This document shows, one piece after another, positions 26,286 to 63,277 of a stretch of DNA of 64,000 nucleotides. The stretch's first letter is position 1; each line of letters begins with the position of its first letter. This DNA is from Paramacrobiotus metropolitanus (taxonomy: Eukaryota; Tardigrada; Eutardigrada; Parachela; Macrobiotidae), in NCBI RefSeq assembly GCF_019649055.1, contig NW_026570288.1, positions 558,001-622,000 on the forward strand, read 5' to 3'. The position numbers were made by a program, and so were the translations under genes. The notes below the pieces were generated by a model. It ran no database searches. It saw only the letters and a program-made list of their open reading frames with translations, and was not told the origin of the DNA.

Positions 26286-26302
26286 ATTAATCCGTCGCGT
26301 GG

Positions 26303-26322: not shown

Positions 26323-26438
26323 TATGATGCAGGAAGATCGCAAGGCACGGAACTACTTTTAGTTGCCGTGTGTATCCTTCGACCGAAATGATGCCTCCAC
26401 TGGGAATTCAGAGGTTTGTGGAAAGAAAACCGAACGCA

Positions 26439-33600: not shown

Positions 33601-34437
33601 CGTCTGGTTTTCGATCCGACGGACCGTCTGAGGAGACGGTAAAGGCTTGATTTTTCGGAGAACTTTCGGAGAACCCTGACAGTCTCTGCCAGATTGACTG
33701 CGAACGCAGCCTCTGCCTAGACTGTAGATCACACAGATCTTACCGTCTTACAGCTGCTGGATAAACGGGTTGATCGCTGAAGCGATCCCTGCCACAGCTG
33801 GTGAGCGCAGTTTTCGTCTCTTCACAAAGAAGAGCATTCCCGAACGCACGGAATACCGGACCCAACCGACGGCCACCAGGCTCGCTACGAGAGCCTGCAA
33901 CGCGAAAGGATTACTCCATAATACGGGGACCTTCGCTTTGAACAGCGACCCGCAACTATACTCGCGGATTTCATCAGGAAACAACGGATTTCCGACCTCG
34001 GACGGAGGATAACCGACCAACCGACACCGACACCGACACCGGTAAAGTCGTGGTTTTAGGTCGGAACTAGCCGTAACTAGGTCGGCTTTTTACTTTCCAA
34101 CAGCTGAAAGTAACTTCTAACTACTAATTCTAAATTTTCAACGGTGAAAAAGTAAATTTTAACGGAGAAACCGACTTAAAATTTTACTTTTTGTCGAGAA
34201 CCGACCTGCTAGGTCAACGAACCTGTCTAGACAGTTAGACAAAGGCTAACCGACAACAGGTCGGAAATCCTTTTCCTTTTCATTTCTAACGGCGTTTCAA
34301 CCGCCAGAAAAATTCTAAAAATCGAAAAACATATTTCTAACGGATTAGAAAATCAAAATTCGACCAAATAAACTTTTTGGCCGACCAAAAATAATTTGTT
34401 TTTCCTGCGGAAAATAGCGCGAAAATTCTTGAATTTC

Positions 34438-34625
34438 CTTGTGACGTCAGAACGACCGCTTTTCAGTACTTTGAGGGCAGCCAATCAGCGTGCAGGGGAA
34501 ACTTCCCATAGCTTAACATAGGCGTGAATCATCATTTTTTTAACTTTTGCACGCGGCTCGCTATCTGTGACGTAGGCAGATAAGTGCAAGACCACTTAAC
34601 CCTGTGACGTCATACTGGTCAGTTC
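34438..34625 (+). promoter_or_regulatory. Conserved CRE/CCAAT/Rel-like module, element 2
   Basis: TGACGTCA at 34442-34449 and 34605-34612, TGACGTA at 34568-34574, CCAAT at 34481-34485 and GGGAAACTTCCC at 34496-34507. The same sites in the same order occur in element 1. ACTGGTCAGT follows the last CRE in both; TCAGT resembles an arthropod initiator motif. Confidence 0.6.
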
Positions 34626-34800
34626 AGTAGTATAGGACGTACTACACCGTACTACTATAACATACTGTACTGTACCTTAGTACTGTATAATAACACCTGT
34701 GTACTGAGTCATCAACAGACACAACAACAACAACATCAACAACTCGTCGGACGTTCCTGACCCACGGAAGTTCCTGAACAAAGAGAAGTTCCTGAATTCA

Positions 34801-34830
34801 TTGAACATCCTCACAAAGGGGATTGTTCAA
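34801..34830 (+). repeat. 12-bp hairpin with ACAAA loop before gag
   Basis: TTGAAC/GTTCAA and ATCCTC/GGGGAT arms (one T-G wobble, one bulged T) close on an ACAAA loop. It ends 72 nt before the gag ATG. It is the longest member of the ACAAA hairpin set. Confidence 0.75.
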
Positions 34831-34859
34831 TTTTACTGATAAAAGCAACAAGTCTTTAA

Positions 34860-34874
34860 GGTTCCACAAGAACC
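34860..34874 (+). repeat. Hairpin GGTTC/GAACC before gag
   Basis: GGTTC and GAACC flank CACAA, 28 nt before the gag ATG. Confidence 0.6.
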
Positions 34875-34902
34875 GACCTGATTCATTAGTGGTTCGATAA
34901 CA

Positions 34903-37900
34903 ATGTCGAAACCACGAGAAGACGAATACGCACGGAAGTTCAACACGGACTACTCCCGGCGTGCAAACCTGACCACGTCGTATTCACTGCGACACGCTGG
35001 TCAGGAACGAAGTCAGCCGTCCTCAACGGACTCAACCAAGTCGGCAGAGGCAAGGGAGAAGCGAAACGAGCGGATCCTCCTCGCCGACTCCAACCCAACA
35101 TCGGACGACAGTTTCGAGGACGCCAGGGATAAAACATTCCTGGAACCCAACGCTGACTCGGCAGCCCCGTCCCACCCGACCGGGGGGGATGTGGTACAGC
35201 TGCAGGCAGAGACAACAACGTCTCATGCCGGTCAAGGGCGCCACCAAGGCGCACCGACCAATCCAAACCCAACCGAAGGAAACCAGTCAAGCTCACATGA
35301 AGCTCAGGACCCGGCAACGGCTACGACAGCCACCGAGGTCGGAAAGAAATCACCCAACAAGACGGATGAACCTCGGAAGTCGACCTCGCCCCACATGGGC
35401 AAGGCGACCCAAGAGGTCGGACAACCGACGCCGACCTCCGGGGCCGACCAACAGAAGGTCGACCAACCCATGAAGGAGGTCGGTCAACAGCAACCGACCA
35501 CAGGTGCTAGTCGGAAATCGCCGACTAAGGAGATCGGCCAACCGAAGCCGACCTCCGAAGCTACCCAACTTCAACCTCCTACGGAAGTCGGACAACCAAC
35601 GCCGACCTCCGAAGTCGACCAACAGAAGGTCGACCAACCATTAACCACTGAGGTCGGACAACAACATCCGACCAACACCGGACAGGAAAAGCCGACAGCA
35701 GAAGTCGGTAATGTCCAACCGACCACAAAGGTCGGAAGGATTTCGCCAACCTCGAAGGTCGGTCAACAGAAGCCGACCACAGAGGTCGGTCAGAAGGAGG
35801 TCGGTAACATACAGCCGACCAGCAAGGAACAACGACCAACCGACAACAGGTCGGAAGTCGGAGTCCAGCCGACCAAACCGACGGTCGGAACGGAGGATAC
35901 CGAGGCACCGCCACGAAGCGGCCCTCGCCCAGCTGGATCGCCGACCAACATACCGATACCCAACGAACGGGTCATTTCACCGCTAAGCCGACCTTCGCCA
36001 ACAGAAGGCAAGTCGACTCGAGCCACAAAGGCTCAAGAGACGGCGAAGTCGACCAGGTCGCCAACCAGTCGACCTGTCGACCGGACATCACTACCGATGT
36101 TCGACGTCGGAGATTCAGGTAGCGAAACACCGCCACCAACCGACGACGTCTTCGATCCCACCGAATCACCCCCCAACAGTGCGGACGGATTCTTCCGAAC
36201 GCCGATAGTGTCCCACAAGGACAGGTACCAAGCTAGTACGCTTGAGTACACGGCTCGGAAGTGGATCTCGGCAACACCGCCAGAGAAGATCGATGATATA
36301 AACAAACTCCGACAACGATGTCACCAGCTGATCACACAGATCGTGCTGGCTGACAAACTCGTTAATGCAGCAGAAGGCTCATGCGCACGGTCGGAAGAGA
36401 CACACCGCCTCGAACGGAAGAGGTGGGAAACCGAAAACAACGGTCTCAACAAGGTCATCGCCGACCAACAGCGCGAGATGGATAAACTCAAGGCCTTCGT
36501 CAAACGGATGGAAGGACCATGTCGATACGAAACATTCGAAGAGGTAACCGACCTCAAAGCTAAGTTGGACCGGTCAACAGAAGCCGCCCTCCAACTTGGG
36601 AAGCAACTGGAAACGGCCGAAAAGGACCTTGCCGACACACAAACGGCATTGGTCGCCTCAGAACAGGCAGCCGGACATTTCCACGAAATGCTGAATCGGG
36701 CCAACGAAGAAGCCGAAGTATACCGTAACGAAGTGGATCGGTACATTGTCGAACTGCGGAAGGCCGACAACGAGGTCGACCGGCTCCGACAGTATACCGA
36801 CCAACTCCAATCCGAACTGGAAATCCTAACGGCCAGAAGTCGACGACAAAGTCCGACTTACTCTGGTCGACAGCCAACCTCCACGGAACAGAGGAACCAC
36901 ATTGCCGACTTGCAAGAAGCTAACACACAGTTAGCCGACCAAGTTTTCGGATTGAACGATTACCTCAAAGAGGAGGAGAAGCTCCGAGCACAGCTAGAAT
37001 ACAACCTAGCTGAAGCCCAAAAGGTGAACGAGGCGCAACGAAACCGCATCGTTTACCTGGAGGCGCGGGAAAACGAACTGTTCGACTACGGTTCGACCGC
37101 GGCCGACAAGATTAACGAGATGAATGGTCAAATGGACGAAATGGAGACCGAGATCCGGTGCCTCCAGGAGGAAAAGAAGCACCTGGAACAGACCAGGGCT
37201 GAACCTCCGTCCTATAAGACCTCGATGGCACAGGAATATTACCCGTCACGTGCCATACATGACATCCTGTGGAGCACGGACCCGGAGAAGAAGGAGACAA
37301 ACCCTTCCTACTTCGTGGGCGTGGTCACAACCGACCCGAACACCGGAATGCCTCCACAACCGAACCCAATTCCGAGTCAACCCGAACCGGAACATAACAC
37401 GTCGACTGCGGCACCACACGTGCCAACGTCGAACGTGCCGACTACGACAGTAGCGGCCGGTGCAAACACCAGCACCTCCTTTTCGACGCGCACAACAACG
37501 TACGCGCCGATTCCCACCGCATCCCACCCGGACAACAGCGACGGAGGATTCCCTTTTAACCGCCAACCAGGACGGTTTATGGGACGAACAGGCTCCCACC
37601 CGGACATGGGAGATCCGAACCGTCTGGACCCACGCGGGTTCGACCTCGGACGAACACGAGCTCGGTCGAACAACATGACCGACCAAGGTAGATACTTCGA
37701 CCAACAGGAGTCGACCCGCCATCCGGCAGGCTACCCCGAACAACAAAGTCGGGCGCCGCCGTTTCGGCCACCGGAAAGCCGACTGCCACCGAGGGGAACA
37801 CAACCCGGATTGTACGGCAGAGTAACGGAACAGCCGAGGGGATTTTACGCACTCCCACTGAGAGCGGTGCCGGCGCCACAAATGCGACCGGACGCGTATG

Positions 37901-39183
37901 AAGGCTACTCGGAACAGCCACAACAACGGCAGCCGACGCCACATACCCGAACTCCCCCACCACAACAGAATCATACTCGAACGCCACCTCCGCAACAGAA
38001 CGGATACGGCGAACCGGCCTACCAACCGGCAGGGTACCCTGACCACCAAGGTCGGATACCCTTGGCGAACCCACCGCCCGCCCTGGAAGCACAACAAGTT
38101 GCACCAGCGGCTGCACCAGTACCACCTCAAAACCCGGCAGGATTGGACCCCGCCCATGTGGCTATGGTACGCGCAATGGCCCGCGGACGTCGGCAACCTA
38201 TGCCAGACTTCGACGGCGACTATACTAAGCTCAACGAATGGCTAAAGCAAATCCGCCAGCTATACCTGCAGGCGCAAGAATGGTACGAAACCGACCAGAG
38301 CTTTATGGCCGACCTCATAGCCAAACTAAAAGGCCAGGCGGAGGAGTTCCACCGACTAACAAGAGTCGACGAACCCCTTGGCGGATGGCCAGTCAACTTA
38401 TGGCTGACCAAGTTTGAGGCCCGATTCACGGACAAAAACCGGGAAATCAACACCGTTAAACGGATGGCCAAACGTACGTTCCGCTTCGGACAAGAAACGC
38501 CGGAACAGTACTACGACGCCATGATGTATATGAAATCCCAGGTCCGTACAATCACTGACAACGTCGCACTTTACTACCTGAAAGAAAATATCCATGAACC
38601 CAAACTGAGGGAAGCTTTGGATATTCGGATGCCGGCAACTCTGACTGAGTTCCGCGACTTCCTCAGCGACTTTGTCAGCGGCAAAGAGATGTACGAGGTG
38701 AGGAAGGACTTGCGCGACAACGATTACGTTCGGGTACGAGCAACAACGCCGGTACCAACGCAAACCCTACCACCTCCGACTCCGCAACAAACCGCGTACC
38801 AGCCACACATGATGCCCGGATACCAAACTCCGACGGCTCAATACGGACAACCGACTCCGGCGGCGATACCACCAGTGCAACAAGCACCCGTCCAGCAACC
38901 GACCTGGGCCGGAGCGGTGGCGAACTCGAACTTGCCCCCACCTAGGACAGCAACCCCGCCTAACAACTACGGAGGCGCCGGTTATGGCTCGGGAGGCAAC
39001 CAAAACAACGGAAGTTTCAGTTACGACCAGAACCCCAACCAGGGATACTCCGCTTACGGCCAGGTTCCCACACAGGGATATGGCGGCGGAGGTTACGGTC
39101 GTGGAAAGGGACGCGGCTTCGGAAATCGAGGTCGTGGTAACTTCGCCAACCGCGGCGGAGGCGGAAGCCCACAAGGCAACTGA
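34903..39183 (+). CDS. gag: Gag of element 2 (very large)
   Basis: 1426 residues from ATG 34903 (AACAATGTCG, good context). Residues ~130-330 are low-complexity Pro/Thr/Gln with repeated EVGQ and PTSEV units that are encoded by runs of CCGACC and GGTCGG. A coiled coil spans ~440-760. A Pro/Gln/Arg-rich linker follows. The capsid-type domain lies at ~1085-1270 (PMPDFDGDYTKLNEWLKQI, ETPEQYYDAMMYMKSQV, LREALDIRMP), then a Gly/Asn/Tyr-rich tail. It lacks the MGQT start of element 1. Ends at TGA 39181-39183 and continues in frame as nucleocapsid. Confidence 0.92.
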   Translation: MSKPREDEYARKFNTDYSRRANLTTSYSLRHAGQERSQPSSTDSTKSAEAREKRNERILLADSNPTSDDSFEDARDKTFLEPNADSAAPSHPTGGDVVQLQAETTTSHAGQGRHQGAPTNPNPTEGNQSSSHEAQDPATATTATEVGKKSPNKTDEPRKSTSPHMGKATQEVGQPTPTSGADQQKVDQPMKEVGQQQPTTGASRKSPTKEIGQPKPTSEATQLQPPTEVGQPTPTSEVDQQKVDQPLTTEVGQQHPTNTGQEKPTAEVGNVQPTTKVGRISPTSKVGQQKPTTEVGQKEVGNIQPTSKEQRPTDNRSEVGVQPTKPTVGTEDTEAPPRSGPRPAGSPTNIPIPNERVISPLSRPSPTEGKSTRATKAQETAKSTRSPTSRPVDRTSLPMFDVGDSGSETPPPTDDVFDPTESPPNSADGFFRTPIVSHKDRYQASTLEYTARKWISATPPEKIDDINKLRQRCHQLITQIVLADKLVNAAEGSCARSEETHRLERKRWETENNGLNKVIADQQREMDKLKAFVKRMEGPCRYETFEEVTDLKAKLDRSTEAALQLGKQLETAEKDLADTQTALVASEQAAGHFHEMLNRANEEAEVYRNEVDRYIVELRKADNEVDRLRQYTDQLQSELEILTARSRRQSPTYSGRQPTSTEQRNHIADLQEANTQLADQVFGLNDYLKEEEKLRAQLEYNLAEAQKVNEAQRNRIVYLEARENELFDYGSTAADKINEMNGQMDEMETEIRCLQEEKKHLEQTRAEPPSYKTSMAQEYYPSRAIHDILWSTDPEKKETNPSYFVGVVTTDPNTGMPPQPNPIPSQPEPEHNTSTAAPHVPTSNVPTTTVAAGANTSTSFSTRTTTYAPIPTASHPDNSDGGFPFNRQPGRFMGRTGSHPDMGDPNRLDPRGFDLGRTRARSNNMTDQGRYFDQQESTRHPAGYPEQQSRAPPFRPPESRLPPRGTQPGLYGRVTEQPRGFYALPLRAVPAPQMRPDAYEGYSEQPQQRQPTPHTRTPPPQQNHTRTPPPQQNGYGEPAYQPAGYPDHQGRIPLANPPPALEAQQVAPAAAPVPPQNPAGLDPAHVAMVRAMARGRRQPMPDFDGDYTKLNEWLKQIRQLYLQAQEWYETDQSFMADLIAKLKGQAEEFHRLTRVDEPLGGWPVNLWLTKFEARFTDKNREINTVKRMAKRTFRFGQETPEQYYDAMMYMKSQVRTITDNVALYYLKENIHEPKLREALDIRMPATLTEFRDFLSDFVSGKEMYEVRKDLRDNDYVRVRATTPVPTQTLPPPTPQQTAYQPHMMPGYQTPTAQYGQPTPAAIPPVQQAPVQQPTWAGAVANSNLPPPRTATPPNNYGGAGYGSGGNQNNGSFSYDQNPNQGYSAYGQVPTQGYGGGGYGRGKGRGFGNRGRGNFANRGGGGSPQGN
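35719..35735 (+). repeat. Hairpin CCGACC-ACAAA-GGTCGG in gag
   Basis: Perfect 6-bp arms. A near copy (ACAGA loop) lies at 35773-35789. Others with the same arms are at 42108-42124 (pol), 53405-53419 (P1) and 59976-59994 (3' region). Confidence 0.8.
36020..36034 (+). repeat. Hairpin GAGCC-ACAAA-GGCTC in gag
   Basis: Same CC-ACAAA-GG core, different arms, perfect pairing. Confidence 0.75.
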
Positions 39184-39215
39184 CCTTCCCAAGCACAACA
39201 AAGTGCTCGGCAGGC
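39176..39215 (+). promoter_or_regulatory. Leaky stop between Gag and NC, element 2
   Basis: Gag ends GGC AAC TGA and continues CCT TCC CAA GCA. TGA followed by C is a known leaky context. A hairpin AGCAC/GTGCT with loop AACAAA begins about nine bases after the stop and could stimulate readthrough. The conserved post-stop residues (SQAQ.SA) are shared with element 1. Confidence 0.65.
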
Positions 39216-39660
39216 GTTGACGTACGTCGACAAGATGGAGGCAGCGTTCTTCCAATGGACGAAGAACAAAACCTTCTCATGCAGACATTGCATGTTTAAT
39301 AATCATGACGGAGCGCGCTGCGGATATGCCGGCAACCGACCGGCGGATAACCCGAATCTCCGTTGGTACAACGATTGGTACCAACGATATACGACGGACG
39401 GTCCAATCGGTTCGGACAACCCGAACTATGCACAGATCGTGCCACCACCGCGGCCTCGCCAACAACAGGGCGGAGGCTCGGGCGGTTCCGGCAACGGAAA
39501 CCGGTCGCCCGGCGGAGGAAATGGCGGGAACCGCAGGAATAGCGGCGGGAGCCAACAAGGGTCCCCGGGGTATCGAGAACCGCTACCGTCACGCCAGTCT
39601 TTGGACCTGACGCCGCCTAACAATGGGCCGGCTCGGGGAAACTCCTCGGGAAACGCCTAA
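39184..39660 (+). CDS. Nucleocapsid segment of element 2
   Basis: Continues the Gag frame past TGA. After PSQAQQSARQALTYVDKMEA comes the zinc knuckle CRHCMFNNHDGARC (C-x2-C-x4-H-x4-C), then Gly/Arg/Gln-rich sequence. Ends at TAA 39658-39660, six bases past the slippery site. The first in-frame ATG is after the conserved residues, which argues for readthrough rather than new initiation. Confidence 0.8.
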   Translation, partial: PSQAQQSARQALTYVDKMEAAFFQWTKNKTFSCRHCMFNNHDGARCGYAGNRPADNPNLRWYNDWYQRYTTDGPIGSDNPNYAQIVPPPRPRQQQGGGSGGSGNGNRSPGGGNGGNRRNSGGSQQGSPGYREPLPSRQSLDLTPPNNGPARGNSSGNA

Positions 39661-39690
39661 GGTCGATGAGCTCCGGTGACTCATTCGACC
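39648..39690 (+). promoter_or_regulatory. -1 ribosomal frameshift signal, element 2
   Basis: GGGAAAC at 39648-39654 in phase G GGA AAC, spacer GCCTAA, then a stem-loop at 39661-39690: GGTCGA pairs with TCGACC and TGAG with CTCA. The -1 frame reads CGC CTA AGG TCG ATG and enters Pol directly. Heptamer, spacer length and loop position match element 1 while the paired bases differ. Confidence 0.9.
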
Positions 39691-42600
39691 TCCAACATCC
39701 CACCGAACCACCGGACAAGGATAACCCGACTAATCAACCGCATTTTTCACGGAACGAACCTACCTTAACTCCGCAAGAGAACCGGATACTGACAGTCCTA
39801 AACGTACTGGGACTGAATGAAGACAGCACAGAAGACCAATTCCTCACAGCGCTGTCGGCTTCCACAAAGGAAGCCGAAGCCGCCCGAACTATGGCGGCAG
39901 AACTCGGTATATTCGTCAACAACGACGGAATCGAAATCCGATTCGGAACGCAAGAAATGCCCGACTCAACCGACCCACCGCATCAACTAGGCGCTGGAAC
40001 GTCGAACGTCGGAACGCAGCAAATGCCCGGATCGGCCGACCCAGTGCCTCGACTTGGCACTGGAACGTCGGAGGTCGGAACGCAACAATTGCCCGACCTA
40101 CGCGGAGCTAACATTGCATCCGCGCCGCCAGCCGCAGAAAGTGACGCTGAGCGGACCGGCCATAGAACTTGGACCGGATTGCCGGTGAGCAGAACCTCAA
40201 CCGAGCCGCCTAGACAAGGCCCAAGACGCGGAGGACCGGGACGCCGATTCGCGCAACGGGGCAACAGAAACTACCCCAATGTATCATCCGTATCCGGAAC
40301 GGATAGATACGCTGCAACATTAGCAGCCATCGACCTCACCGAAGAACCGGGAGGATTCGAAGAATGGGAAACCGTCCCATTGGAAGCACAAGTACCCGAC
40401 TACTGTCTGCAGCAGGAAGCGGGCTTCTTCCAACCTCAGCCACGAACAGTAACTGGCTCTCGAACGTTCCAGAACATCGACTACATGTTGTCCACCGTGA
40501 GACCGACGGACGTCTCTACGGAGGAACGAATACTTGAAACTGCACGACGGTTCGAAACTACCGACCCACGGAAGGACGGAGTAGCTAACCGACCTGAAGT
40601 ACGGAAAGTGGTTACAGCCGAAGTGGAACATCCAACCGACCACGGACCAGTGTCACTGATCCCCGTCAAACCGACAGTACGGGAAGTTACCTTCGAAAAA
40701 GGAACTCATAAGAAACCAAAGACGGTCAGAGCCTGGACACACGAAATCCAGATCGGACCCACGCCCACAATGGCGATGATCGACACTGGAGCGGAAACTT
40801 CGCTGATCGAGAAACGATTTTGCGAGAGGAACGGCCTGACGATGCAACCTCTCGGACACTACACCAAAATACTTGGTGTAGGCGGACAAGTCGCCTTCGT
40901 AGTGTCTCACTGCTGTACTGCACCTGTAACAATGCAGGGCTTTACTAGCCACCATACTTTCCACGTCCAGCCAACCGACGCGGACGTCCCTGTGTTACTT
41001 GGATGCGACTACCTGCATTCCAAGTTCACATTTATCCTAACTCCGATCCCTAACCCGGAACAACCAGAAGGGACGGTGGTGCAGTCTATCCCGATACCAG
41101 AGGCATCGGACACGGTAGGAAACGAGGTTCGGATTAGTCGGATTGATCACCCGGCGAACTCCACACGTAACATCTGCCGCGATTGCCGGGATACAAACCG
41201 CACTCTGCTGGAGGAACTAGCACTCCATAATGTAATAGAACATTACCAGGGACGGATACGCACCGGCACATTACGACCGGCAAAGCGGATACTAAAGTCT
41301 ATCCCGACACCAGAGGCATCCGCCACGGAAGCGGATGCTCTGGACAAAAATCTGAGGGAAGTACAACAGAAGTACCGAACTTGGTTTACGGGAGTTCAGC
41401 ACTTTCTCGACCGACGGACGTTGGAGTTAGTAGCTACTCTGCGACAGAACGGAGCGACAACACCCGACCAGATCCGGATAGCACAACAAGAATGCGAACC
41501 GGTCATGGCTTTAATACAAACTATAGATGACGAAGCGTGGGAATGGGAAGACGACAGAGTTCCAATCCATCGACAGTACATGGAGTACGGACTCCCCATA
41601 CCGCGCCCCTTGGAGATGTGCAGCCAAGAACTAGGCAGCCAGCTCTTCTCCTACTTGGAACGTATACAACAATACGGATCCGCCGCAACAACGGCATTCT
41701 GGCAACGGTATGGCGAAGACACGGCCATAACTCGGAACGTACCCGACCCGTTACCACCGGTGGAGGAACATCGCCCAACCGGTGTAAAATTCATAACGAG
41801 TCCGCCTCGACCAAAAGGGGACACGCAACTGGACGAACCAGATCGACCGTACCGATGTGTTATCTGTAAAGATAACATCGACGGCGTAGTACGGGCGACA
41901 CAAACCCGCCACAGCGTAACTTGGCTGGATGGCAGACCGTCGTCACCGGCACCTCCGCAACCAGACCGGAAAGTAGACCGATTTCGGAAGACTCAACCGA
42001 CAGTCATCCGATGGCTGAGCAACACGAGCTCACAGCCAACCGACCTTGAGAATCAAGACGGAGCAGACCGACCGACCCAACCGACGGATACGGCCGACTT
42101 GTCCGAACCGACCACAAAGGTCGGATACGGTAACATGCCGGAGGTCGACCTCGACGAAGAAGGATCGGCCATAGAATACGAAGACTATGAGTCGGACGGC
42201 TCGGACGTACAAAACACGAGCGACTCAGCGGACACTGACTCCGATAACCGACCTTCGGAAGAATCCGAGGAAGAGGACGACGACGAAGAATTCGGCCCGT
42301 CAGTCCGACACTGTAGGTCGGATAAACCGCAGAAAAACGACTCGGACGAGTCGTCGGAGGACGAAGAACCGACCTTCGACGTACGGCTAACAAAAGCACT
42401 GCGGTCGATCGTCCATACAGAGCTCATAGTCGACGTCGAACCGACGGAACAAATTAAACCAGCGGATCCCGAGCAACAAGCCGAACAGGATCAGCTAGCT
42501 GCCTTATTCGAATGGGCGGGAGGACAACCGGAGGAAACCGACCTCCGACCTCCCACAATAGTAGTCCAGCAGTTGTCGACCGAACAACCGACCTCGGCCA

Positions 42601-46817: not shown

Positions 46818-47285
46818 TCGGATAGTAAGTCGGAAGCATCGGTTCAACCAGCTACCCAACCGACGGACGAAACAAAGAAGCCAGAAAAACCGGCTAAGAA
46901 AAAGAGGACGGTTAAACCAACCGACCAATCGGCGTCGACCACGGAAGTCAAAACGACCGACCAGGAGGTCGAATTCACCAAACCGAAAAGGAAATACACG
47001 AAGAGGACGGTTAAAACGACCGGCCCGGTGGCACCAACCACGGAAGTTACGGTAGCCGACCAGGTAGTCGAACCGACCAAACCCAAACGGAAATATGGAA
47101 CGGCCAAGAAGCCGAAGTTGACGGCACAACAGATGCTGGAAGAAACCGAAGTCACTGAAGATGAAGCTCATAAGGAGATCCTCGAGAGAATCTCAGAAGG
47201 ACGAGCTGACTCGGAGAAACCGACCAAACCAGTCAAACCAAAGACACCTAAAACATCAGTCACAACAGCACTGACTCAGTCATAG
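46818..47285 (+). CDS. Pol tail of element 2 after an in-frame TAG
   Basis: Same frame as Pol with no other stop to 47283-47285. It has Lys/Thr-rich repeats (KRTVKPTDQ, KRTVKTTG, KPKRKYG) and ends with LTAQQMLEETEVTEDEAHKE, which matches the tail of element 1. There is no early ATG. In element 1 the same tail is separated by a frame change instead of a stop, so the break is not conserved and may be a lesion; readthrough cannot be excluded. Confidence 0.65.
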   Translation, partial: SDSKSEASVQPATQPTDETKKPEKPAKKKRTVKPTDQSASTTEVKTTDQEVEFTKPKRKYTKRTVKTTGPVAPTTEVTVADQVVEPTKPKRKYGTAKKPKLTAQQMLEETEVTEDEAHKEILERISEGRADSEKPTKPVKPKTPKTSVTTALTQS

Positions 47286-52700: not shown

Positions 52701-52744
52701 CTGCTGACCTCGTCCGACCTCCACCTCCTCCGGCACTACAGTAG
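49562..52744 (+). CDS. Accessory polyprotein P1 of element 2, middle part
   Basis: ATG 49643, but the frame is open upstream past 49562 with helix-like residues (RELDKLHQLM). It overlaps the end of the previous frame and probably continues it. It encodes about eight or nine more helical-hairpin units of ~60-90 residues, for instance RIRERMRILP...LDTQIRTEEQAL, EAVEDQYREAVEVMETLNKQ and LAERRKIMDQNLARAKQIAA. Linkers again carry TTTTQAV. Ends at TAG 52742-52744 (CAG TAG GCC) and the same frame stays open after it. Confidence 0.75.
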   Translation, partial: RNPPQEIPTEQLPLRTIRRELDKLHQLMNKHPHFVQNLDAAERRSDNVKPPSTIEVQAVVAEGNLALDRWTGAHVNRDIALANAGRINSIKRSIRIVQILSARGEPTTDDVAQRIINHVGTIRQLIQSDPPGNEQQVPSYHIMALRAREDPRAAEIWRTILDGKRTLMGIYEDITETTVSGALPKINTLVTDIKLAEDFVRNGIPATEPGKSRLEAVMGHMKQFILTEKRPTSELEEQTSSTSTTTTQAVMMNTSTNTTVDPERLRKIESLKRRKSGIINQSNKIRERMRILPTSGANRPQEFQVLLDQYKQLYNQHNELDTQIRTEEQALQTATASSQPTTTQVVTEPTEEGLRTYINAKVALREAERISKQINERSAKGLEPNAREKLSEILTRMKMVQDLIQHGPPMTENHRRLIQPGVDLLVNSNREQRSLLTVEPTTSSTRYSPISSPTPAVSPTTQMKKDRRHKIETTISDGRDLLGDLQRKYIDITPVDIVSVKEARQKMDHLAAYLRQADDLINMDKPTEADERQLRSTIERITEILDAEPNYNRIPTPPPPRRPTPTTTAVMTLVHSTPMTDLLGNIEVIYQAGQDLAEIFFHRLKGNLPQQEACRLSRIDRALRNDLDWADTLGSWGIPSAGPNQDRLAEALQSIVDHIRQYLAVPTEAPTKPVTPEDEEMTLTNSPGPDVELPLVEAATDQQEVDLEAVEDQYREAVEVMETLNKQLRELDPNKPFERRLREALEQQHVICSRRVQDLWKILEANPQRAQPKSTQPKPTSTGQPTQPTLAERRKIMDQNLARAKQIAAGLERQIADMSDTDPTMINVKLALHDQLRISQMHVHDLEAEIDTQRRQSLRDNQAERARRAATNSQPTSTTAPVQPTPTVVPTQPKPASPKPVDISDRPMSPATEARIMAAIPDTGSLPISAPSSTIKLMNQVEQLITEMRARRNFCESGSQLAHDLDRDILAWGSNAKHLRQMYHADAPKTASIRRHINSITSWLEMQVRNYEDDKERTETTNQAPQRAIVTSRTSRIRQVQSTRNPTADLVRPPPPPALQ

Positions 52745-55700: not shown

Positions 55701-57358
55701 ACGGCGAGGGGAACATCGACAGCATCATCAACAACATAATCACCGAAGAAATCGCGTCGATGGTTGAAGAATATACTCTTCAGACGACCAATGCGGAACG
55801 CGACCTACCCGTTCGGTACACCGTACCAGGATTCATACCGGAACCACAACGACGTGAGTTTAAACTCCGGATGTCCTACGTCAACAAAGACAAGCCACCA
55901 GCGGGTACGGAAACGATCGTGGAGGAATATAGCGAGACGGACGAACAACCGTCCGGTGCTGCAGCCGACATGCTGCACATCGCTAGATCAGCCGGACAGT
56001 CATCCCAGAAGCGGATCCAGGCTCGCCCCCGACCTCGGGCACCTTTCGAGCCGAAAACGTACATCAGCACGGCGATGGCTCCACAAGGACGAGCAAGTGT
56101 GACCAAACCAGGTCGGAGCACGAAAGGACGGTTTAAGCCGAAGGACACACAGTCACTTCCGCCGACCTCGCCGATGGAAACCTCGCCGGCCCCAGAAGAG
56201 AAGACTCAACGAAAGAGTCAGCCGAAGACAACAAAGTCCAAGAAGAAGCCGGCTAAGAAGGATGAGTCAACCAAGTCCGAATCCGAAGACGACGATGAGG
56301 ACGATGAAGACTTCCAAACACCTGGAAGTGGATCGGGAAAAGACGACGACGACGACGACAACGGTAAACCACCACCGCCACCGCCTTCGGCGCCCCAACA
56401 GCAGGGCGAACCGGAAATATCCGACAAACAGGATAAGCCACCGGCCGACGGTAACAATGCCGACGAGCCGATGCAAGAAGATAGTGGCGACGTCTACGTC
56501 CCCCGTTACTACGGTCAACGGATACCAGTAACCCCCGACTCTGAACCAGATCAACTCCTAACGGAATGGGATGAAGATACCAGGGAGGAATTACCAAACG
56601 ACATCCCCCCACTGGCTAATGTACGGGTAAAATACACCGGTATGATGCGAGCCCAACAGCCGAAACCTTCCGTCTCGGAATACGACCCCGGATGGATGTA
56701 CACGTTTGCGGCTTTGAAGGCTCTCGCGACCCGTGGACCGAAGTTCGCTACGCCGAGGATCGCCTTTAAACTCCTCCAACACTGGAAGGTGAACGAAGGC
56801 GAGTGGCGACAATTGAGCTACAACAACGTCAAACGGTATTGCGAACTCGGCTACCAACGCGGAAAAATAATCCGGACACATGCCAGCAACAAGCGCATGT
56901 ATTACGAATTTCCACCGGATAAACTGGACCCGGCCCCCGATACATATGAAGGATGGGTACACGCCATTGAAGCGTGTATGGAAATGACGTGGCATCCAGA
57001 AGGAATAACGCGCGGTGAACTCATGCACCAACTATTGGCGCGGTTCGACTTCGCTCGACTGGCGAAGAAACCTCAACTGTCCGACCCGAAATACAAGCCG
57101 AAGAAAGATCCCCGGAACAAGGGATATGACCTGGCCGACGAGCTGGAGTGGGTCCTGGAAAAGGGATTCTTCCAGAAACGTTTCGCCTCGAGTACGGACA
57201 ACATCCAAGGCGGCCAGCGGTTCGTGGCTTGTAACCCGTCGACACACCGACACGGACATCTACCAAAGGAACGACCGGCCACGGAGCAACAGAACGAGTC
57301 GACCGACTCTCTCCAAGTGGACCGGCCGGAACCAACCGACCCTCCTACTCGGGAATGA
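52745..57358 (+). CDS. Accessory polyprotein P1 of element 2, C-terminal part
   Basis: Same frame as the segment before the TAG; first ATG 52829 (1509 codons). Domains in order: one more helical unit; a Lys/Pro-rich linker; a conserved block with PRINPAAYTL; Arg/Ser-Pro-rich basic region; QVIHSANS; long Lys/Glu-rich low complexity; a ~200-residue domain with IARCIGYIRNPRGSNLVQIAR and RYTVPGFIP; an acidic Asp/Glu/Pro linker; and a ~190-residue C-terminal domain with two winged-helix-like units (GWMYTFAALKAL..., GITRGELMHQLL). Element 1 encodes the same order across three broken frames. No known family recognised. Confidence 0.8.
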   Translation, partial: ADLDPATLERINGILKSADEVIAELRRIMDITDQQSPQYLQIDINLGHLENNTKEVRFILRPTTKQSAKNRERLQVLLAKIESFVEDFRKRKEAEEQRRKAKHPPSAKKAKVQQSPRKSTNLAETNPPVDQDDPMDNAPVPPFEHKVDAMDTSEPDNGQPKPLVRPTTLPLHREPKTSENIEERGPRRRLFSPAPVRTKEQLLELMRSAPTLPPAEEKESRPQRSTPSDIELFTPSIHKRLMRKAKSLDLQRILYEAQLKGGIWKQNMSEDEQTELAQRIYATTQERDTALRRLMILRCGKQELRQLPLDAAILKPVQQLRRPRINPAAYTLEVPPQPGQDVTDKIPMTMSDNSDESDQGYRKGSRIEDDPTYDDDLTWQDALLQDARTNSGRSSVSRTETPTPRRSRSPVKQISPNRAASQPVRMPSQPATEQPRRFTPKTTPTKAKKTPEEMDTTSPSKVKTGTEAETVQQEAEPTSARSGPDLTIDESRTNEPATEPVRSSKKKEKPPQDFSREFHNDLALRHVQDLTRSEQDVSVDIAFPEDRDLWNALRTRRTNLTGNTDAVRREYDRLTERMAEVMKRMGERYREEKSQPKALQDATPAKTTAPTPTPTSKTTSQLVVKMKVPQPIRQPSVQIDDDPLLNSQVIHSANSAKLSRREKKKANKEAKKEAAKQSAKPETEKKPAKSDTKESTKQKSDPSVKTPKPNPAKRHKSSDDLDVSDAGPQRTERKDKPSEKYDSEAAERRFQDLMKQAGTKPTKATAERPQTSSKPEELSEPQPSTSKQQSDAESDQISDIEAKDSISDHGDGDPYEGFKGDRKEIFRHAPDTDESQWPAPDDVRERLPDQQEEADTEIVLRTARVHVEVVRSIKNAKDNGTDIYQSLVRDLLTNVQADGATWLTHQLMMAIVAWTLDFGLAVAVHRQWGRMAELLPPDVIKALKSTSGKNSDDIPTRIARCIGYIRNPRGSNLVQIARVYNVMYMNGEGNIDSIINNIITEEIASMVEEYTLQTTNAERDLPVRYTVPGFIPEPQRREFKLRMSYVNKDKPPAGTETIVEEYSETDEQPSGAAADMLHIARSAGQSSQKRIQARPRPRAPFEPKTYISTAMAPQGRASVTKPGRSTKGRFKPKDTQSLPPTSPMETSPAPEEKTQRKSQPKTTKSKKKPAKKDESTKSESEDDDEDDEDFQTPGSGSGKDDDDDDNGKPPPPPPSAPQQQGEPEISDKQDKPPADGNNADEPMQEDSGDVYVPRYYGQRIPVTPDSEPDQLLTEWDEDTREELPNDIPPLANVRVKYTGMMRAQQPKPSVSEYDPGWMYTFAALKALATRGPKFATPRIAFKLLQHWKVNEGEWRQLSYNNVKRYCELGYQRGKIIRTHASNKRMYYEFPPDKLDPAPDTYEGWVHAIEACMEMTWHPEGITRGELMHQLLARFDFARLAKKPQLSDPKYKPKKDPRNKGYDLADELEWVLEKGFFQKRFASSTDNIQGGQRFVACNPSTHRHGHLPKERPATEQQNESTDSLQVDRPEPTDPPTRE

Positions 57359-57407
57359 GGAGACGCAGAACGCGTCGGAGGAGTTGCAGAACCGACTACC
57401 TCCATCA

Positions 57408-57424
57408 AACACCACAAAGGTGTT
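57408..57424 (+). repeat. Hairpin AACACC-ACAAA-GGTGTT
   Basis: Perfect 6-bp arms around ACAAA, between P1 and P2; arms unlike any other copy. Confidence 0.8.
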
Positions 57425-57559
57425 ATCGACCAACAGAAGTCGACCTACCTCAGTGGCACCACAAAGGCGCCCTGTACCAGCTCGAGAACCGACCTGGCCC
57501 GACCGTAGTAATTATAGGGTGTAGAACCATAGACATATAACATAGGACGCATCCGACAA

Positions 57560-57587
57560 GAGGATTGCTTAACTTTTATTTTAATAG
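57560..57587 (+). promoter_or_regulatory. Splice acceptor for P2, element 2
   Basis: Branch-like GCTTAAC, then TTTTATTTTAATAG ending at 57587. The exon starts CCT CGA ACG in phase 0 with the P2 frame, which has stops just upstream and no ATG, so the start codon must come from elsewhere. Confidence 0.65.
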
Positions 57588-58043
57588 CCTCGAACGGAAG
57601 CCTTCACCAGAGACTGCCAAAGATGCAGCGAGAATGCGACGCCCCAGGGCAACAGACTCCCATGCGCGCAGTGCATCATTTCTTTTACGAATGACCGAAC
57701 CCCGGACACCGGAAGACAGACATATGCCCTGGCCCAAGCTCTGTACTTGAACGTCGTTGCTGGAAACCTCAGCGCGTACAGATACTTGGCTGGCCGAGAG
57801 AACCTCGTCAACCAGCTGCGGGCGTACGAACAGGATAATTTGGCCACCATCCAACGTCAAAGAACCGACGACGAAGGTTGGAGGGGCACTCGACCTCCTG
57901 TATTGACACACCGACTCCTTGAATGGCGCCAGCAACAAGACCTGGTACGCCAAGAAGACGAAAAGAAGAAACTTAAGGAGGTCACGAGAAGATCTCTAAA
58001 ATGGAAGTTTACCCACCACCGACCCGTTACGAACCGGAAATAA
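57588..58043 (+). CDS. Accessory protein P2 of element 2, N-terminal part
   Basis: Open from the acceptor to TAA 58041-58043 with no ATG near the start. Residues ~9-35 have CQRC...CAQC, a likely zinc site equivalent to CADC...CAYH in element 1. LNVVAGNLSAY, LR.YEQ and GW.GTRPPVL follow and match element 1. An ACG stands where element 1 has its ATG. A leader exon ending in ATG (as at the LTR/PBS junction) would start it in frame. It overlaps the next frame (58001) by 43 bases. Confidence 0.6.
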   Translation, partial: PRTEAFTRDCQRCSENATPQGNRLPCAQCIISFTNDRTPDTGRQTYALAQALYLNVVAGNLSAYRYLAGRENLVNQLRAYEQDNLATIQRQRTDDEGWRGTRPPVLTHRLLEWRQQQDLVRQEDEKKKLKEVTRRSLKWKFTHHRPVTNRK

Positions 58044-59761
58044 CGGTTCGGTTACCGGCACCCACACAGGGTCGCTCGGAACCAGAACAGTTGGTTAAAG
58101 AAATACGTGAAGTCTTCGTCGGAGATCCGCACCGACCACTTCAGAGTATTGAGATGAAAATGATGATGAACATGCCGGACGGAACCCGACAGCTGGTTAC
58201 CCTGACTCCGGCTACATCCGAACAGTTGACGGCTATCCCACAAAGGGCTACGCCGGTCATTACCCAAGCTCAACCGATAGTGTCCCAACAGATCCCACAA
58301 CCTGGACCAGCAGCGCAACCAATGGCGCCGCCGCCGTCGACGACTCAACAGCAGCGCCGACCGGCTAGAAACTTGGCAGGGCACGACCTCCGGCATCGAA
58401 TCGGCCACGACGCTCGACACAGAATCGAGGAACAACGGGCCATTATTCGAGGAGCTGGAAAAGAACCTACCAGACCTCCACCCGGCAAACGAACCGGAGC
58501 TGAAGAAATCAGCATCGGACTGGTCGTCGACTCAACCAGTAAGTCGAAACGGAACTTTATCCCACCAGAGCCGCAGCCGGATGCCGACATGGCGGAACCG
58601 GTAGCGCAACCCGAAGCACAACCCGACCAAATGGATGTGGACGTAGCCGATCAAATGGCAAATCTCCCACAAGTGGAGGTGCCGGCTCGAGAAGACCCTC
58701 GTTACGACGTCGCCCGCCGACAGGGAATTGAAGTCGTCATGCCACATCCGACCGAACGAACGGACTACATCATGAACACCATGGAATACGAGGAACGACA
58801 TCGCCCACAAGTATGGCGTATGGTCGAAAACTTACGACAGTTCCTCATCCGATCCGGCTACCAGACCCTGATGGAACGACATCAATGGTTGCCGACCTTC
58901 AACATGACCAGTCACACCAACCCAAATATGGAACATCCATATGACCGAGCGAACGCCTTGCCGTCGATGACCGACCCGGCCTTGCTGAACACACCGCTGT
59001 ACAGTCCGGACGGACCACGGTTAAGTCAGCTCGGCCCACGCGAATACCAGTACGACGAGCTGGAAAGCGTAGCCCAGTTCGTCATCACCGACGCACACCC
59101 GGCTTTTGTCATTACGGCGGCTCGAGCGGCTCTGGACTTGCTGCAATATCTCCCACAAGAGGAGATCGCATTGGAACAGAACAGTACGGCAGCGGTACTA
59201 CGATACCTCTTTGCAGCACGACTTGGCAATTACCATTGCCACTTTACCCTATATGGACTTTATCGGAACCAGAGGATCCCACCAGCGCTAGAAACCATCG
59301 TAGCCCAACTCGGCTCGCCGATGAGAAGCATCATCCTAGCCGTCTGGTTACGGGATCTTCTCTTCGCCCACGAACGGCATGCTGGACGATACGCTATCCG
59401 AACCCAAGAGCAGATCGACACGTACGACGACGCACCTCGATTTGTGAGCTGGTACCGCCAACAGAAGCACTTACCAGCTGGATTTACTTCACATCCCTAC
59501 GAAGAAGGAATGTCGGACGACTTGGCACCGGGCGCACGACCCTTAGCACGGAAGTTGCGGAAACAAGGAGCCAAGGCAAAGAAGTCCCAAGCTGAACACC
59601 CTGGACAGGAGACGGAGGACGACAATGCGTCCCAACGAAGTAGTTCTGTCAGCTGCAAACCAGGGGAGTCCACATTACGACCTCATCACCGACCAAAACC
59701 GGACGATGACGAAGAAGATTACTTCGGCGGCGATGCGCCGGTCGATGTGAACTTGGGATAG
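58001..59761 (+). CDS. Accessory protein P2 of element 2, main part
   Basis: 586 residues from ATG 58001. Gln/Pro-rich first half with an Arg/His segment (GHDLRHRIGHDARHRIEEQR), then a conserved ~300-residue domain: DYIMNTMEYEER, LPTFNMTSHT, NALPS, AQFVITDAHPAFVITAARAA, LRYLFAARLGNYH. The same motifs are in 4565-6621 of element 1. The C-terminus is acidic. In element 1 the N-terminal zinc part and this part share one frame, so here they are separated by a frame change near 58000. No membrane segment. Function unknown. Confidence 0.8.
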   Translation: MEVYPPPTRYEPEITVRLPAPTQGRSEPEQLVKEIREVFVGDPHRPLQSIEMKMMMNMPDGTRQLVTLTPATSEQLTAIPQRATPVITQAQPIVSQQIPQPGPAAQPMAPPPSTTQQQRRPARNLAGHDLRHRIGHDARHRIEEQRAIIRGAGKEPTRPPPGKRTGAEEISIGLVVDSTSKSKRNFIPPEPQPDADMAEPVAQPEAQPDQMDVDVADQMANLPQVEVPAREDPRYDVARRQGIEVVMPHPTERTDYIMNTMEYEERHRPQVWRMVENLRQFLIRSGYQTLMERHQWLPTFNMTSHTNPNMEHPYDRANALPSMTDPALLNTPLYSPDGPRLSQLGPREYQYDELESVAQFVITDAHPAFVITAARAALDLLQYLPQEEIALEQNSTAAVLRYLFAARLGNYHCHFTLYGLYRNQRIPPALETIVAQLGSPMRSIILAVWLRDLLFAHERHAGRYAIRTQEQIDTYDDAPRFVSWYRQQKHLPAGFTSHPYEEGMSDDLAPGARPLARKLRKQGAKAKKSQAEHPGQETEDDNASQRSSSVSCKPGESTLRPHHRPKPDDDEEDYFGGDAPVDVNLG

Positions 59762-59765
59762 GGGC

Positions 59766-59786
59766 AGGTTTCCACAAAGGAAACCT
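59766..59786 (+). repeat. Hairpin AGGTTTCC-ACAAA-GGAAACCT
   Basis: Perfect 8-bp arms, five bases after the P2 stop. Confidence 0.85.
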
Positions 59787-59975
59787 AGTCCTAGGACTTA
59801 GAGCCGAGAACCGGCATGGTCGAGAACCGACCTGGTCGAGAACCGACCTGGCTAAGAATCAGCCTAGCTGAGAAACAGCACCGTCGAGAAACGACACGGA
59901 AATGTGAACGGATACCATACTTCAGTTCTTACACCATGGACGTAACAGACGTCGACACACGATAACGCCATTAAA

Positions 59976-59994
59976 GCCGACCACAAAGGTCGGC
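59976..59994 (+). repeat. Hairpin GCCGACC-ACAAA-GGTCGGC
   Basis: Perfect 7-bp arms in the 3' region. A shorter CGACC/GGTCG copy lies near 60556. Confidence 0.85.
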
Positions 59995-61819
59995 CGGATT
60001 CTTCGGTCTGACCCGGAAACGTGTGGTTAGACCTGGGTAGTTCGGTCCTTTCACCGTACCGGCACGTCCCCCGAGGAATCCCCTGGAAAGAACTGAGCAA
60101 CCGACCTCAGTTCCCCAGCATGGCATGCGCAGACCGCGGAACCACGTAGGCTAACACAGCACATCGTGAACCACATCTGCTACAGTTGGAACCAACAGAC
60201 GTTCCGGCTAAAATCGTGGAAACCACACCCAACCGTCTGTTACATGGTGAGATTGAAGATTACTCCGGCCAACCGACTCTGGAGTGAAGACCGAGAGGAT
60301 AACGCTAGCATGTTGCTAAATACGGAACTGCGTATTTATCATCATGCTTGCTTGGCACCCATGGCCGACTCGAGAATCGAGCAGCCGACCAGTAACCATC
60401 GTCTCCGAAAACAGTCGGATACTGGGATAAGCCGACCACAAAGGTTGACCGTGCCCAGAAAATACGACAACAGATCGCGGTAACCACGACCGGCTACCTT
60501 ACCCGACTCAACATGGGAAGCAGGAAAGCACCAGCCAGGATCTGCTGCCTTAGCCGACCACAAAGGTCGTACATGCTATAGGTAGATACCGCAGACCGCG
60601 GTAATAACCACGATCGCAACCGTCAGAAAGTCGTACCGGATTCTCCGCTGAACCCAGAGTTACAGACTCTGTACCTGGAGTCCAACCGACGTCTCCCCCG
60701 GAGGATATTGGACATAACGGCCGATTCACCGGTGAACACGACTACGCGCGCCTTGAACGTGCTGCCATTCCCGGAAGAGGAACAGCGACGGTGATTTGGC
60801 TACCGGCGTACCAACGACTCCGCCGCGACCTGCTTCCCCAGGACTCAAATGGAACATCCTAGGCAGATCGTACTAGTAGTTACGACCTGCATCCCTTAAC
60901 AAGTCCGTTGACGGAAAACAACTGCCCGCAACAGAACCGGCCAGCTGTTCTGCGTCATCGGCGAGAAACGAATCTCCCCTGCGGACAAGAGTCGTCTAAC
61001 CCCAACAGAAGTGGCTAGGTGTCTCTGGTTCGCGACGAAAAACGATAAAGTGGATCTCATGCGACCTCAGGACCCTTGCATGTGCATGAAGATGGATCCT
61101 CGCCGGCAACCAGACCCGGCCAGATTTAAACCAAAGAGCTTGTTCCGTGAGCTGGGACCACAAAGGCCCCTTTTCACCACAAGCATGCATGACTGCCTGA
61201 TGGAAACGGACTGTTCGGCCAACAGACGCCACAGCCACAGGAGAAACGGAGTTATGCTGCCGAATGTCCTTTTGCCAGTCCGAACTGACCGAGGGATATT
61301 CAGACACTGGAAACCCAGTCAACTGTAGCTGGATGGGCGGCACACCCGGAATTGAATTAACCATGACAAGGGACGTACAGCAGACCTCGAATCGGAGGTC
61401 GGAACTGACCGAACGGAGGTCGGAAATGTACGACAACACGTCGGATGAAGTAACTACCAGTCGGAAATCGACCTCCTAACGGAAGAATACATCTTTTGGA
61501 CGGATGAAAACATGCTTCAACCGACCAACGGGAGCCGATAGCCGACCTCCGACCTCCAACATGGATAACCGACCAAGGTCGGACATGGATGACGACCGAC
61601 AACAGGTCGGCTAAAGTGGTCAAAACTAAAAGAAGAGGTCGGACAGAAGAACGCGAACATCGCCAGTTACCTCGATCGACCATCGAGGAACGAAAATTCC
61701 GACCACCCGCCTTCTAGCATTGCAACCGACCAATGCCCGGAAAACATTACGACCGACCACAGGTCGGATCGGCACAACGGAATGCCGACCAAGAAGTTAA
61801 CGGATGGAAACACTACTCC

Positions 61820-61834
61820 GTGCCACAAAGGCAC
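61820..61834 (+). repeat. Hairpin GTGCC-ACAAA-GGCAC
   Basis: Perfect 5-bp arms; arms differ from other copies. Confidence 0.8.
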
Positions 61835-61990
61835 AAGGTAGTAGTCAACTGACCATTTCCACCGCGAGAAACATGAAAATTCCGACCGGACCTTCGAGCC
61901 AGTTCGACTCGGATGAAACCATAACCCGGCTCGTGGTAGCAGATTGAACGGTTTTAACCGATCACTTTTTAAACGGAACTGCTCTACTCA

Positions 61991-62007
61991 GCAGCCACAA
62001 AGGTTGC
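61991..62007 (+). repeat. Hairpin GCAGCC-ACAAA-GGTTGC
   Basis: Six pairs including one G-U wobble, which pairs in RNA but not in DNA. Confidence 0.75.
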
Positions 62008-63273: not shown

Positions 63274-63277
63274 TATC

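Follow-up and report, generated by a model that had tools for sequence, protein, structure and literature searches.

We analysed a window of 64,000 nucleotides (nt) of the tardigrade Paramacrobiotus metropolitanus (positions 558,001 to 622,000 of contig NW_026570288.1) and describe here the hairpins of element 2, a Ty3/gypsy-type long terminal repeat (LTR) retrotransposon of about 30 kb on the plus strand at 33153-63274 of the window. The element carries many dispersed hairpins that share a loop and differ in their stems. The class of the loop is specific to the lineage: element 2 and its relatives use C-ACANA-G pentaloops, a related lineage denoted S4 uses CACANAA heptaloops, and element 1, a distant relative in the same window, uses NAAC/TANC tetraloops. 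This assignment is well supported, and we are highly confident of the hairpins and their lineage-specific loop code, taken alone. With moderate confidence, we further propose that these are hairpins of the sense RNA that are read at the loop by a protein of the element, likely the Gag nucleocapsid, in packaging.

Dispersed hairpins in element 2

The window contains the exact core CCACAAAGG 18 times, always on the plus strand and always inside element 2, compared to a mean of 0.76 and a maximum of 4 in shuffles. A stem of at least 5 bp surrounds 12 of these cores and is missing from 6. The wider loop ACANA occurs at 218 sites of the internal region, 25 of which form a hairpin with a stem of at least 5 bp; in 1000 shuffles of the right arm, this number averaged 1.77 and never exceeded 8. 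Among the 30 CC-ACANA-GG cores, 18 have such a stem, compared to a mean of 6.1 and a maximum of 12 in 2000 arm swaps; hence, neither the core nor frequent arm words account for the excess. The ACANA class is part of a wider excess, with 94 hairpins in element 2 versus 26.6 in shuffled sequence for all loops of 4-8 nt and stems of at least 6 bp. Per 5-kb stretch, this excess is highest at the 5' end (23 versus 4.5) and lowest at 43600-48600, spanning the end of pol (6 versus 4.2). The same count in four host stretches gave 7 versus 7.5 (26900-33100), 6 versus 6.2, 9 versus 5.4, and 10 versus 4.8, where the first 930 bases of the last stretch resemble the elements. The latter two values show that shuffled levels are sometimes exceeded in host DNA, though its counts are far below those of element 2. 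Many dispersed hairpins above chance, with a common loop motif and variable stems, are what is looked for in multi-site packaging signals.

The hairpin observation is real and more extensive than first reported. The initial annotation had listed ten hairpins sharing a CC-ACAAA-GG core, and all ten are present at their positions. The common core holds at these sites with the exception of 34807, where TC-GG (with a U-G pair) and not CC-GG stands beside the loop. The codon-preserving shuffles that it had proposed as a check leave the excess in place: for stem lengths of 4 bp or more, there are 8 ACAAA hairpins in open reading frames (ORFs), versus a mean of 0.77 and a maximum of 4 in 500 synonymous-codon shuffles. 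The ACAAA loop itself proved too narrow a description, as the motif is wider (ACANA) and lineage-dependent, which is invisible from one element.

The 25 ACANA pentaloop hairpins of the internal region have stems of 5-9 bp with G-U pairs allowed; 15 are located in ORFs and 10 are non-coding. All are on the plus strand. Apart from those discussed below with their counterparts in other copies, they are AGATC-ACACA-GATCT (33726..33740), CCGACC-ACAAA-GGTCGG (35719..35735), GCCGACC-ACAGA-GGTCGGT (35772..35790), TGATC-ACACA-GATCG (36329..36343), AGCCC-ACACA-GGGTT (47846..47860), ACGGCC-ACACA-GGTCGT (47872..47888), CGACC-ACAAA-GGTTG (60433..60447), CGACC-ACAAA-GGTCG (60555..60569), GTGCC-ACAAA-GGCAC (61820..61834) and GCAGCC-ACAAA-GGTTGC (61991..62007).

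Two side observations concern these sites. The loop starts at codon phase 0 (Thr codon ACA) in 13 of the 15 coding ACANA hairpins and in 44 of 132 other ACA[ACG]A sites, counted over the ORFs of element 2 at 34903-57358. By eye, the stems of three of the six weak-stem exact cores (loops at 54928, 57461 and 61160) are broken at the third pair by one A-C mismatch, and near-perfect CC-ACANA-GG hairpins with a single A-C mismatch at this pair are seen at 48199, 48523, 49111, 50300, 57461 and 61160. Since 48492-48566 and 49080-49154 form a repeat, at least two of these near-perfect hairpins are not independent.

Loop classes across lineages

Loci from the Gag search of the same genome provided 30 copies, which fall into four groups on one alignment with 66-80% identity between groups: S1 (L009-L011, where L009 is element 2), S2 (L012-L014 and L020), S3 (13 copies) and S4 (10 copies). 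The S2 data cover the gag region only, and S4 is represented outside gag by one nearly complete copy. Element 1 is far outside S1-S4, with about 51% identity and essentially unalignable sequence in the grouped region.

An unbiased scan of all loops of 3-8 nt returned ACANA for S1 (element 2; 18 of 222 occurrences, Bonferroni p about 1e-20) and for S3 (7 of 127, Bonferroni p 2e-5). For S4 it returned CACANAA (12 of 31, Bonferroni p 2e-19), on 10 different inner stems. Element 1 gave TANC (13 of 288), NAAC (18 of 626) and TAGAANT (5 of 12), and the signal in the gag region of S2 was weak, with AGATC (3 of 10) and AACGGAA (3 of 6) as the best loops. When only stems of at least 5 bp are counted, the ACANA pentaloops of S1 number 24 with a closing C-G pair and one with a closing A-U pair, next to one CACANAA and six NACANAA loops in all. 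The corresponding values for S4 are no ACANA pentaloop closed by C-G, two otherwise closed, 13 CACANAA and 21 NACANAA. Per copy of the gag region, there are 3-10 pentaloops in S1/S3 versus 0-1 in S4, and 1-3 heptaloops in S1/S3 versus 6-10 in S4. Even as plain strings, CACANAG and CACANAA occur at a ratio of 42:4 in S1 and 5:31 in S4. Hexaloops of the form [AC]ACANN number 7-11 per copy of the gag region in S2, 2-5 in S1/S3 and 1-2 in S4; compared to their random share, three S2 copies have 8, 7 and 11 versus 0.4-0.6. For the most part, the seven AACAAA hairpins of L020 (5 bp or more in the stem) belong to a local tandem repeat, and we did not count them as independent.

We then compared individual sites by mapping the S1/S3 pentaloop hairpins onto one S4 copy, where a stem of at least 5 bp was scored as a hairpin. 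Of the 34 mapped sites, 14 carry a hairpin in S4 and 11 lack one, and the alignment has gaps at the other 9. Loops of 7 nt are found in 10 of these 14 (9 NACANAA and 1 CACGGAA) and ACANA pentaloops in none, the remaining four loops being 6, 3, 5 and 5 nt long. At three sites, the stem is changed on both sides at one pair or more in addition to the loop: AACACC-ACAAA-GGTGTT (57408..57424) corresponds to AGTAC-CACATAA-GTACT in S4, AGGTTTCC-ACAAA-GGAAACCT (59766..59786) to AGGTTCC-CACATAA-GGAACCT, and GCCGACC-ACAAA-GGTCGGC (59976..59994) to GCCAAC-CACATAA-GTTGGC. Nothing but the loop and closing pair differs between CTCATC-ACAGA-GATGAG (52391..52407) and CTCAT-CACAGAA-ATGAG of S4; the same is true of GTACC-ACAGA-GGTAC (45136..45150), whose S4 counterpart GTAC-CACAGAA-GTAC has a 4-bp stem and was scored as no hairpin. 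CCGACC-ACAAA-GGTCGG (42108..42124) is matched by CCGAC-CACGGAA-GTCGG, and at the site of CTCTTC-ACAAA-GAAGAG (33818..33834) the loop of the S4 copy L022 is a CACACAA heptaloop. There is no S4 hairpin at GAGCC-ACAAA-GGCTC (36020..36034), GCTAAC-ACACA-GTTAGC (36919..36935), CTGGATA-ACAAA-TGTCCGG (42681..42699), CGACC-ACACA-GGTCG (48794..48808), ACGACC-ACACA-GGTCGT (50582..50598) or CGACC-ACAAA-GGTCG (53405..53419). At the gap site 39855, S4 copies show AACAGA[AT] loops in another alignment. The reverse map of 21 S4 heptaloop sites gave 33 comparisons, comprising 8 ACANA pentaloops, 12 cases with no hairpin, 4 gaps and 9 others, one of which is the heptaloop hairpin at 58413 discussed below.

Covariation at orthologous sites

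Formal covariation was evaluated with 500 shuffles at two sites, which were chosen for good alignment from five whose coordinates had been drawn up. The leader hairpin ATCCTC-ACAAA-GGGGAT (34807..34823), with an outer 7-bp stem past one bulged base, covaries across 30 copies (22 distinct). Its cells are paired in 91.3% of cases compared to 85.6% in shuffles, and there are 28 two-sided-change cells compared to 10.1 ± 3.5, a value that none of the 500 shuffles reached. When the partner was slid along, the paired cells fell to at most 47%. The ORF2 site TCGGCTTCC-ACAAA-GGAAGCCGA (39855..39877) covaries across 29 copies (22 distinct), with 76.3% of cells paired versus 69.6% in shuffles, 18 two-sided-change cells versus 7.3 ± 2.8 (0 of 500) and 6 pairs with two-sided change versus 3.6 (15 of 500). 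Hairpins are hence conserved at orthologous sites, as looked for in packaging signals, with two sites tested formally and 14 of 34 mapped sites keeping some hairpin.

Two-sided changes were also pooled between lineages, where each comparison was taken in both directions. Watson-Crick pairs make up 49 of 66 such changes in motif hairpins, 160 of 286 in short-loop hairpins as a whole and 303 of 710 in the long-loop controls (gap cells excluded: 72, 366 and 1182, respectively). The Watson-Crick excess of all short-loop hairpins pooled over the long-loop control is modest. We did not use the one-sided changes of motif hairpins (58 A-C versus 28 G-U), since the loss of the C-G closing pair in S4 is counted among the A-C cases.

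Strand and folding

In the S1-S4 sequences, 42 motif hairpins with a perfect stem of 5 bp or more have the loop in the sense direction, compared to 0 in the antisense direction. The loops have an A content of 0.47 on the sense strand versus 0.27 in shuffles. Windows of 120 nt were folded and compared to shuffles as z scores. The mean z is -1.58 for the sense and -1.15 for the antisense strand of element 2 (p 1.4e-8), -1.86 and -1.28 for element 1 (p 2.3e-10), and -0.09 and -0.17 for host DNA (p 0.66). The sense-antisense gap was then compared, by magnitude alone, to that of strand-symmetric surrogates in which perfect hairpins were kept and the rest was shuffled, giving 0.41 versus 0.18 for element 2 and 0.62 versus 0.09 for element 1. 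Because the surrogates that keep the hairpins yield a smaller gap, part of the gap seems real, beyond composition. Codon shuffles gave negative folding z in all six ORFs of element 2, from -0.51 (ORF6, the weakest) to -1.70.

The elements and their proteins

The P. metropolitanus genome comprises 169.8 Mb in 533 contigs, and the window is part of contig 68. Element 2 has features of the Ty3/gypsy type, namely paired direct LTRs of 437 bp (33153..33589 and 62838..63274, plus strand, 99.8% identity) and the Pol order protease, reverse transcriptase, RNase H, integrase in ORF2 (39666..46817, plus strand; Pfam). Just upstream of it, 32421-32743 is a tandem repeat whose units measure 66 and 132 bp. 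Element 1 (1747..26832, minus strand; LTRs 1747-2132 and 26448-26832) has a Pol with the same four domains, and the two Pol proteins share 65% identity over about 1270 residues, compared to 34% over about 300 residues for the C-terminal part of Gag. Searches of the same genome gave at least 82 matching stretches for the reverse transcriptase region and at least 46 for Gag, where some copies contribute more than one. Outside the host species, the nearest named pol relatives are in the pseudoscorpion Cordylochernes, among 120 of 2478 pol matches listed. The Rfam scan gave no matches at gathering scores and the tRNA scan found none.

ORF1 (34903..39183, plus strand) encodes a Gag of 1426 amino acids with a capsid-like region, identified by eye, and an RGG-rich tail. 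A CCHC zinc knuckle (39280..39321, plus strand) lies in the Gag frame 3' of the Gag stop of this copy. The open frame over the Gag match is at least 1500 codons long in 22 of the 30 loci, compared to 1433 in the copy of the window. Gag homologues are many within the same genome. Residues 1000-1426, searched against 5.8 billion proteins with only the candidates sharing most words scored, had one relative, from the same species. The family search with the capsid-like region matched no gag family and gave DUF4939 below its cut-off (20.4 versus 29 bits) together with two weaker matches. A single-sequence model of the capsid (predicted local distance difference test score 47) was too poor to be used for a fold search, and two matches of the Gag alignment to Protein Data Bank sequences at E about 0.05 were judged to be chance. 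At E 0.001, Pfam returned nothing for ORF3-ORF6 (47578..59761, plus strand; 709, 1034, 1509 and 586 amino acids); ORF5 and ORF6 contain segments related to proteins of element 1, at 32-36% identity.

The zinc knuckles are of two main types, spread across the lineage groups. One is found in S1, L020 and most S3 copies, and the other (K type) in L012-L014, three S3 copies and S4, which has a variant of its own in all 10 copies. This distribution suggests recombination.

The hairpins of element 1, read on the minus strand, include ATCTCCTC-TACC-GAGGAGAT (10097..10116), CGGCCCA-TAC-TGGGCCG (13751..13767), GTCGGGCC-CAAC-GGTCCGAC (13876..13895) and AGACCGG-AATC-CCGGTCT (14147..14164). In L046, 3 kb of a relative of element 1 with 77% identity, compensatory changes are seen by eye at several hairpins (e.g. 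13760, 13887 and 14157): the second of the above hairpins has a compensatory change, the third reads TCGGATC-AAAC-GATCCGA, and the outer pair of the fourth is altered on both sides. Others are lost in L046, e.g. 13375 and 13018 (by eye). Each LTR of element 1 also has one hairpin of the element 1 loop type, at 2036 and 26736, with a 10-bp stem (TATACGCTGA-TAAC-TCAGCGTATA).

Discussion

Stems that are free, a loop that is fixed, a single orientation, the spread over the whole genome of the element and loops that shift with the lineage together point to a protein reading the loop. In the mechanism that we propose, the recognised feature would be the apical loop, and not the stem, of hairpins on a sense genomic RNA of about 25-30 kb, and a trans-acting protein of the element itself would be the reader. 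The nucleocapsid region of Gag, with its RGG-rich tail and one CCHC knuckle, is the best candidate for this role. By binding many sites along the transcript, Gag may package and condense this very long RNA into particles, and a change of the protein's preference in one lineage would have been followed by the loops at many sites. The hairpins are consistent with putative packaging or protein-binding signals, our preferred reading, which may serve in packaging, condensation or protection of the long RNA. It is possible, if doubtful, that the tetra-, penta-, hepta- and perhaps hexaloop codes are self-recognition barcodes, such that each Gag would package only RNA of its own code and the sites would be rewritten upon a shift in specificity.

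Several results weigh against reading the hairpins as sites of a loop-binding protein. Not all covariation measures exceed the shuffles: the leader hairpin has 5 pairs with two-sided change versus 3.7 (95 of 500 shuffles), and the number of pair types is not above shuffles for either the leader hairpin (8 versus 9.2, 499 of 500) or the ORF2 site (9 versus 9.3, 420 of 500). The copies are related, so that counts across copies are not independent, and S4 beyond gag is one copy. Turnover is high, since 11 of 34 pentaloop sites have no hairpin in S4. As an exception to the S1 code, the heptaloop hairpin CTCGA-CACAGAA-TCGAG (58413..58429, plus strand) is kept by S1 and identical in S4. The hexaloop excess of the S1 copy L009 (4 versus 0.2) is similar in relative size to that in S2; because of this, and because much of L020 is tandem repeat, we consider the S2 preference for hexaloops a leaning only, toward a weak code. 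With regard to the candidate reader, the Gag frame of the element 2 copy stops about 30 codons before the CCHC knuckle (39181-39321). Moreover, L015, L017 and L018 of S3 have a K-type knuckle like the S2/S4 copies, yet they retain pentaloops. As a predictor of loop code, knuckle type is hence only partial, and the knuckle alone does not explain the code.

Mismatches are a further point of this kind. In motif stems, A-C mismatches are enriched like G-U pairs (25 versus 2.2 and 18 versus 1.3, respectively; other mismatches in otherwise perfect motif stems, 17 versus 5.6), where values are sums over 12 rows and one hairpin may recur under two loop lengths. For all loops of 3-15 nt in element 2, the enrichment of A-C is even the stronger of the two (A-C 164 versus 67, G-U 62 versus 32). 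With A-C as enriched as G-U, wobble pairing does not identify the RNA strand, and we rejected the comparison of the two as a strand test. The tolerance of A-C may be due to mutation bias in an A-rich strand. The initial annotation had taken a G-U pair, along with two-sided changes, as a sign of RNA structure and not of a copied DNA repeat. While the G-U argument is weak, with A-C mismatches tolerated about as often, RNA structure itself is borne out by covariation at two orthologous sites (30 and 29 copies) and by the sense-strand folding excess. Its further suggestion of a spreading palindromic parasite is not supported, as many sites are orthologous between subfamilies and the stems there differ.

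An alternative that we consider unlikely is genome-scale ordered RNA structure without a dedicated binder, in which the RNA would be folded against RNA interference, sensing or decay and A-rich loops would be the residue of generic selection for stability. The genomes of RNA viruses with such structure fold, along their length, at lower energy than shuffled sequence, and element 2 likewise folds along its length at lower energy than its shuffled controls. The generality of the excess beyond the ACANA class (94 hairpins versus 26.6, with mean z of about -1.6 to -1.9) and the negative codon-shuffle z in all six ORFs (-0.51 to -1.70) are in line with this explanation. It needs neither a given loop sequence nor a given loop length, though, and both are specific and lineage-dependent here, which also sets the element apart from the viral case.

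Quite unlikely, in our view, are sites for host RNA-binding proteins, or for control of export or translation, with a different host factor for each lineage. In favour of this possibility, RNA-binding proteins commonly target hairpins in which the loop is fixed and the stem is free. However, the lineages share one host genome and yet the S1 and S4 codes are nearly exclusive, and the sites cover the whole element, coding regions included.

The hairpins could also act in single-stranded DNA during reverse transcription, as nucleocapsid sites on the complementary DNA or as pause or transfer signals. A-C and G-T mismatches are tolerated alike, as if G-U pairing had no special value, as would be expected in this case. 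We regard it as improbable, since the sense-strand folding excess is larger than in strand-symmetric surrogates and the loops are A-rich in the sense strand (0.47 versus 0.27). A neutral by-product of template switching in replication or reverse transcription, which perfects imperfect palindromes, predicts perfect short-loop hairpins and turnover but neither loop codes, one-way loop change at many sites nor different paired bases at the same site, and is already disfavoured as very improbable.

Packaging signals dispersed in RNA viruses and giant gypsy-like elements in planarians are already known. In single-stranded RNA viruses, multiple dispersed packaging signals are described for MS2, picornaviruses and the hepatitis B pregenome, according to the available part of PMC6281560. 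The likeness to the hairpins of element 2 lies in many stem-loops across the genome with a short common motif and variable surroundings (PMC6281560, same part). Here, in contrast, the carrier is an LTR retrotransposon, and the loop code varies between lineages at many sites in one host genome and is known from sequence. The genome of the element is about eight times as long as that of MS2. Related coat proteins of the RNA phages MS2, PP7 and Qbeta favour structurally different operator hairpins, and the class that differs between relatives includes loop length, as in our lineages (available part of PMC7952577). Unlike these operators, for which protein binding was measured at single sites, the code described here is genome-wide and was read from the sequence.

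Burro elements of planarians are giant gypsy-like LTR retrotransposons of more than 30 kb with extra coding content, which they share with element 2 (accessible part of PMC6431247). Unlike Burro, element 2 has short LTRs (about 0.4 kb) and several separate large ORFs without Pfam match, and hairpin arrays are not mentioned in the accessible part of PMC6431247. For yeast Ty3, which like element 2 belongs to the Ty3/gypsy group, the Gag zinc finger is critical for RNA packaging (accessible part of PMC4974528). Ty3, different from element 2, is a 5.4-kb element, and a term count of PMC4974528 gave 0 for hairpin and 1 for stem-loop. Among the matches listed from the open-licence literature, none described hairpins that are dispersed and covary, or loop codes that differ by lineage, in LTR retrotransposons, and none dealt with these elements of P. 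metropolitanus.

Short and degenerate motifs make it difficult to prove that an RNA virus has dispersed packaging signals. The near-clean split of two lineages by loop, the covariation at sites and the one-way loop differences are the trace expected of a trans-acting reader. If hairpins read by Gag are indeed the explanation, multi-site genome recognition would extend to LTR retrotransposons, and the hairpins would be a means of packing a 30-kb RNA. The copies in this genome would then provide a natural series of loop variants with matching Gag proteins for testing the coevolution of protein and RNA.

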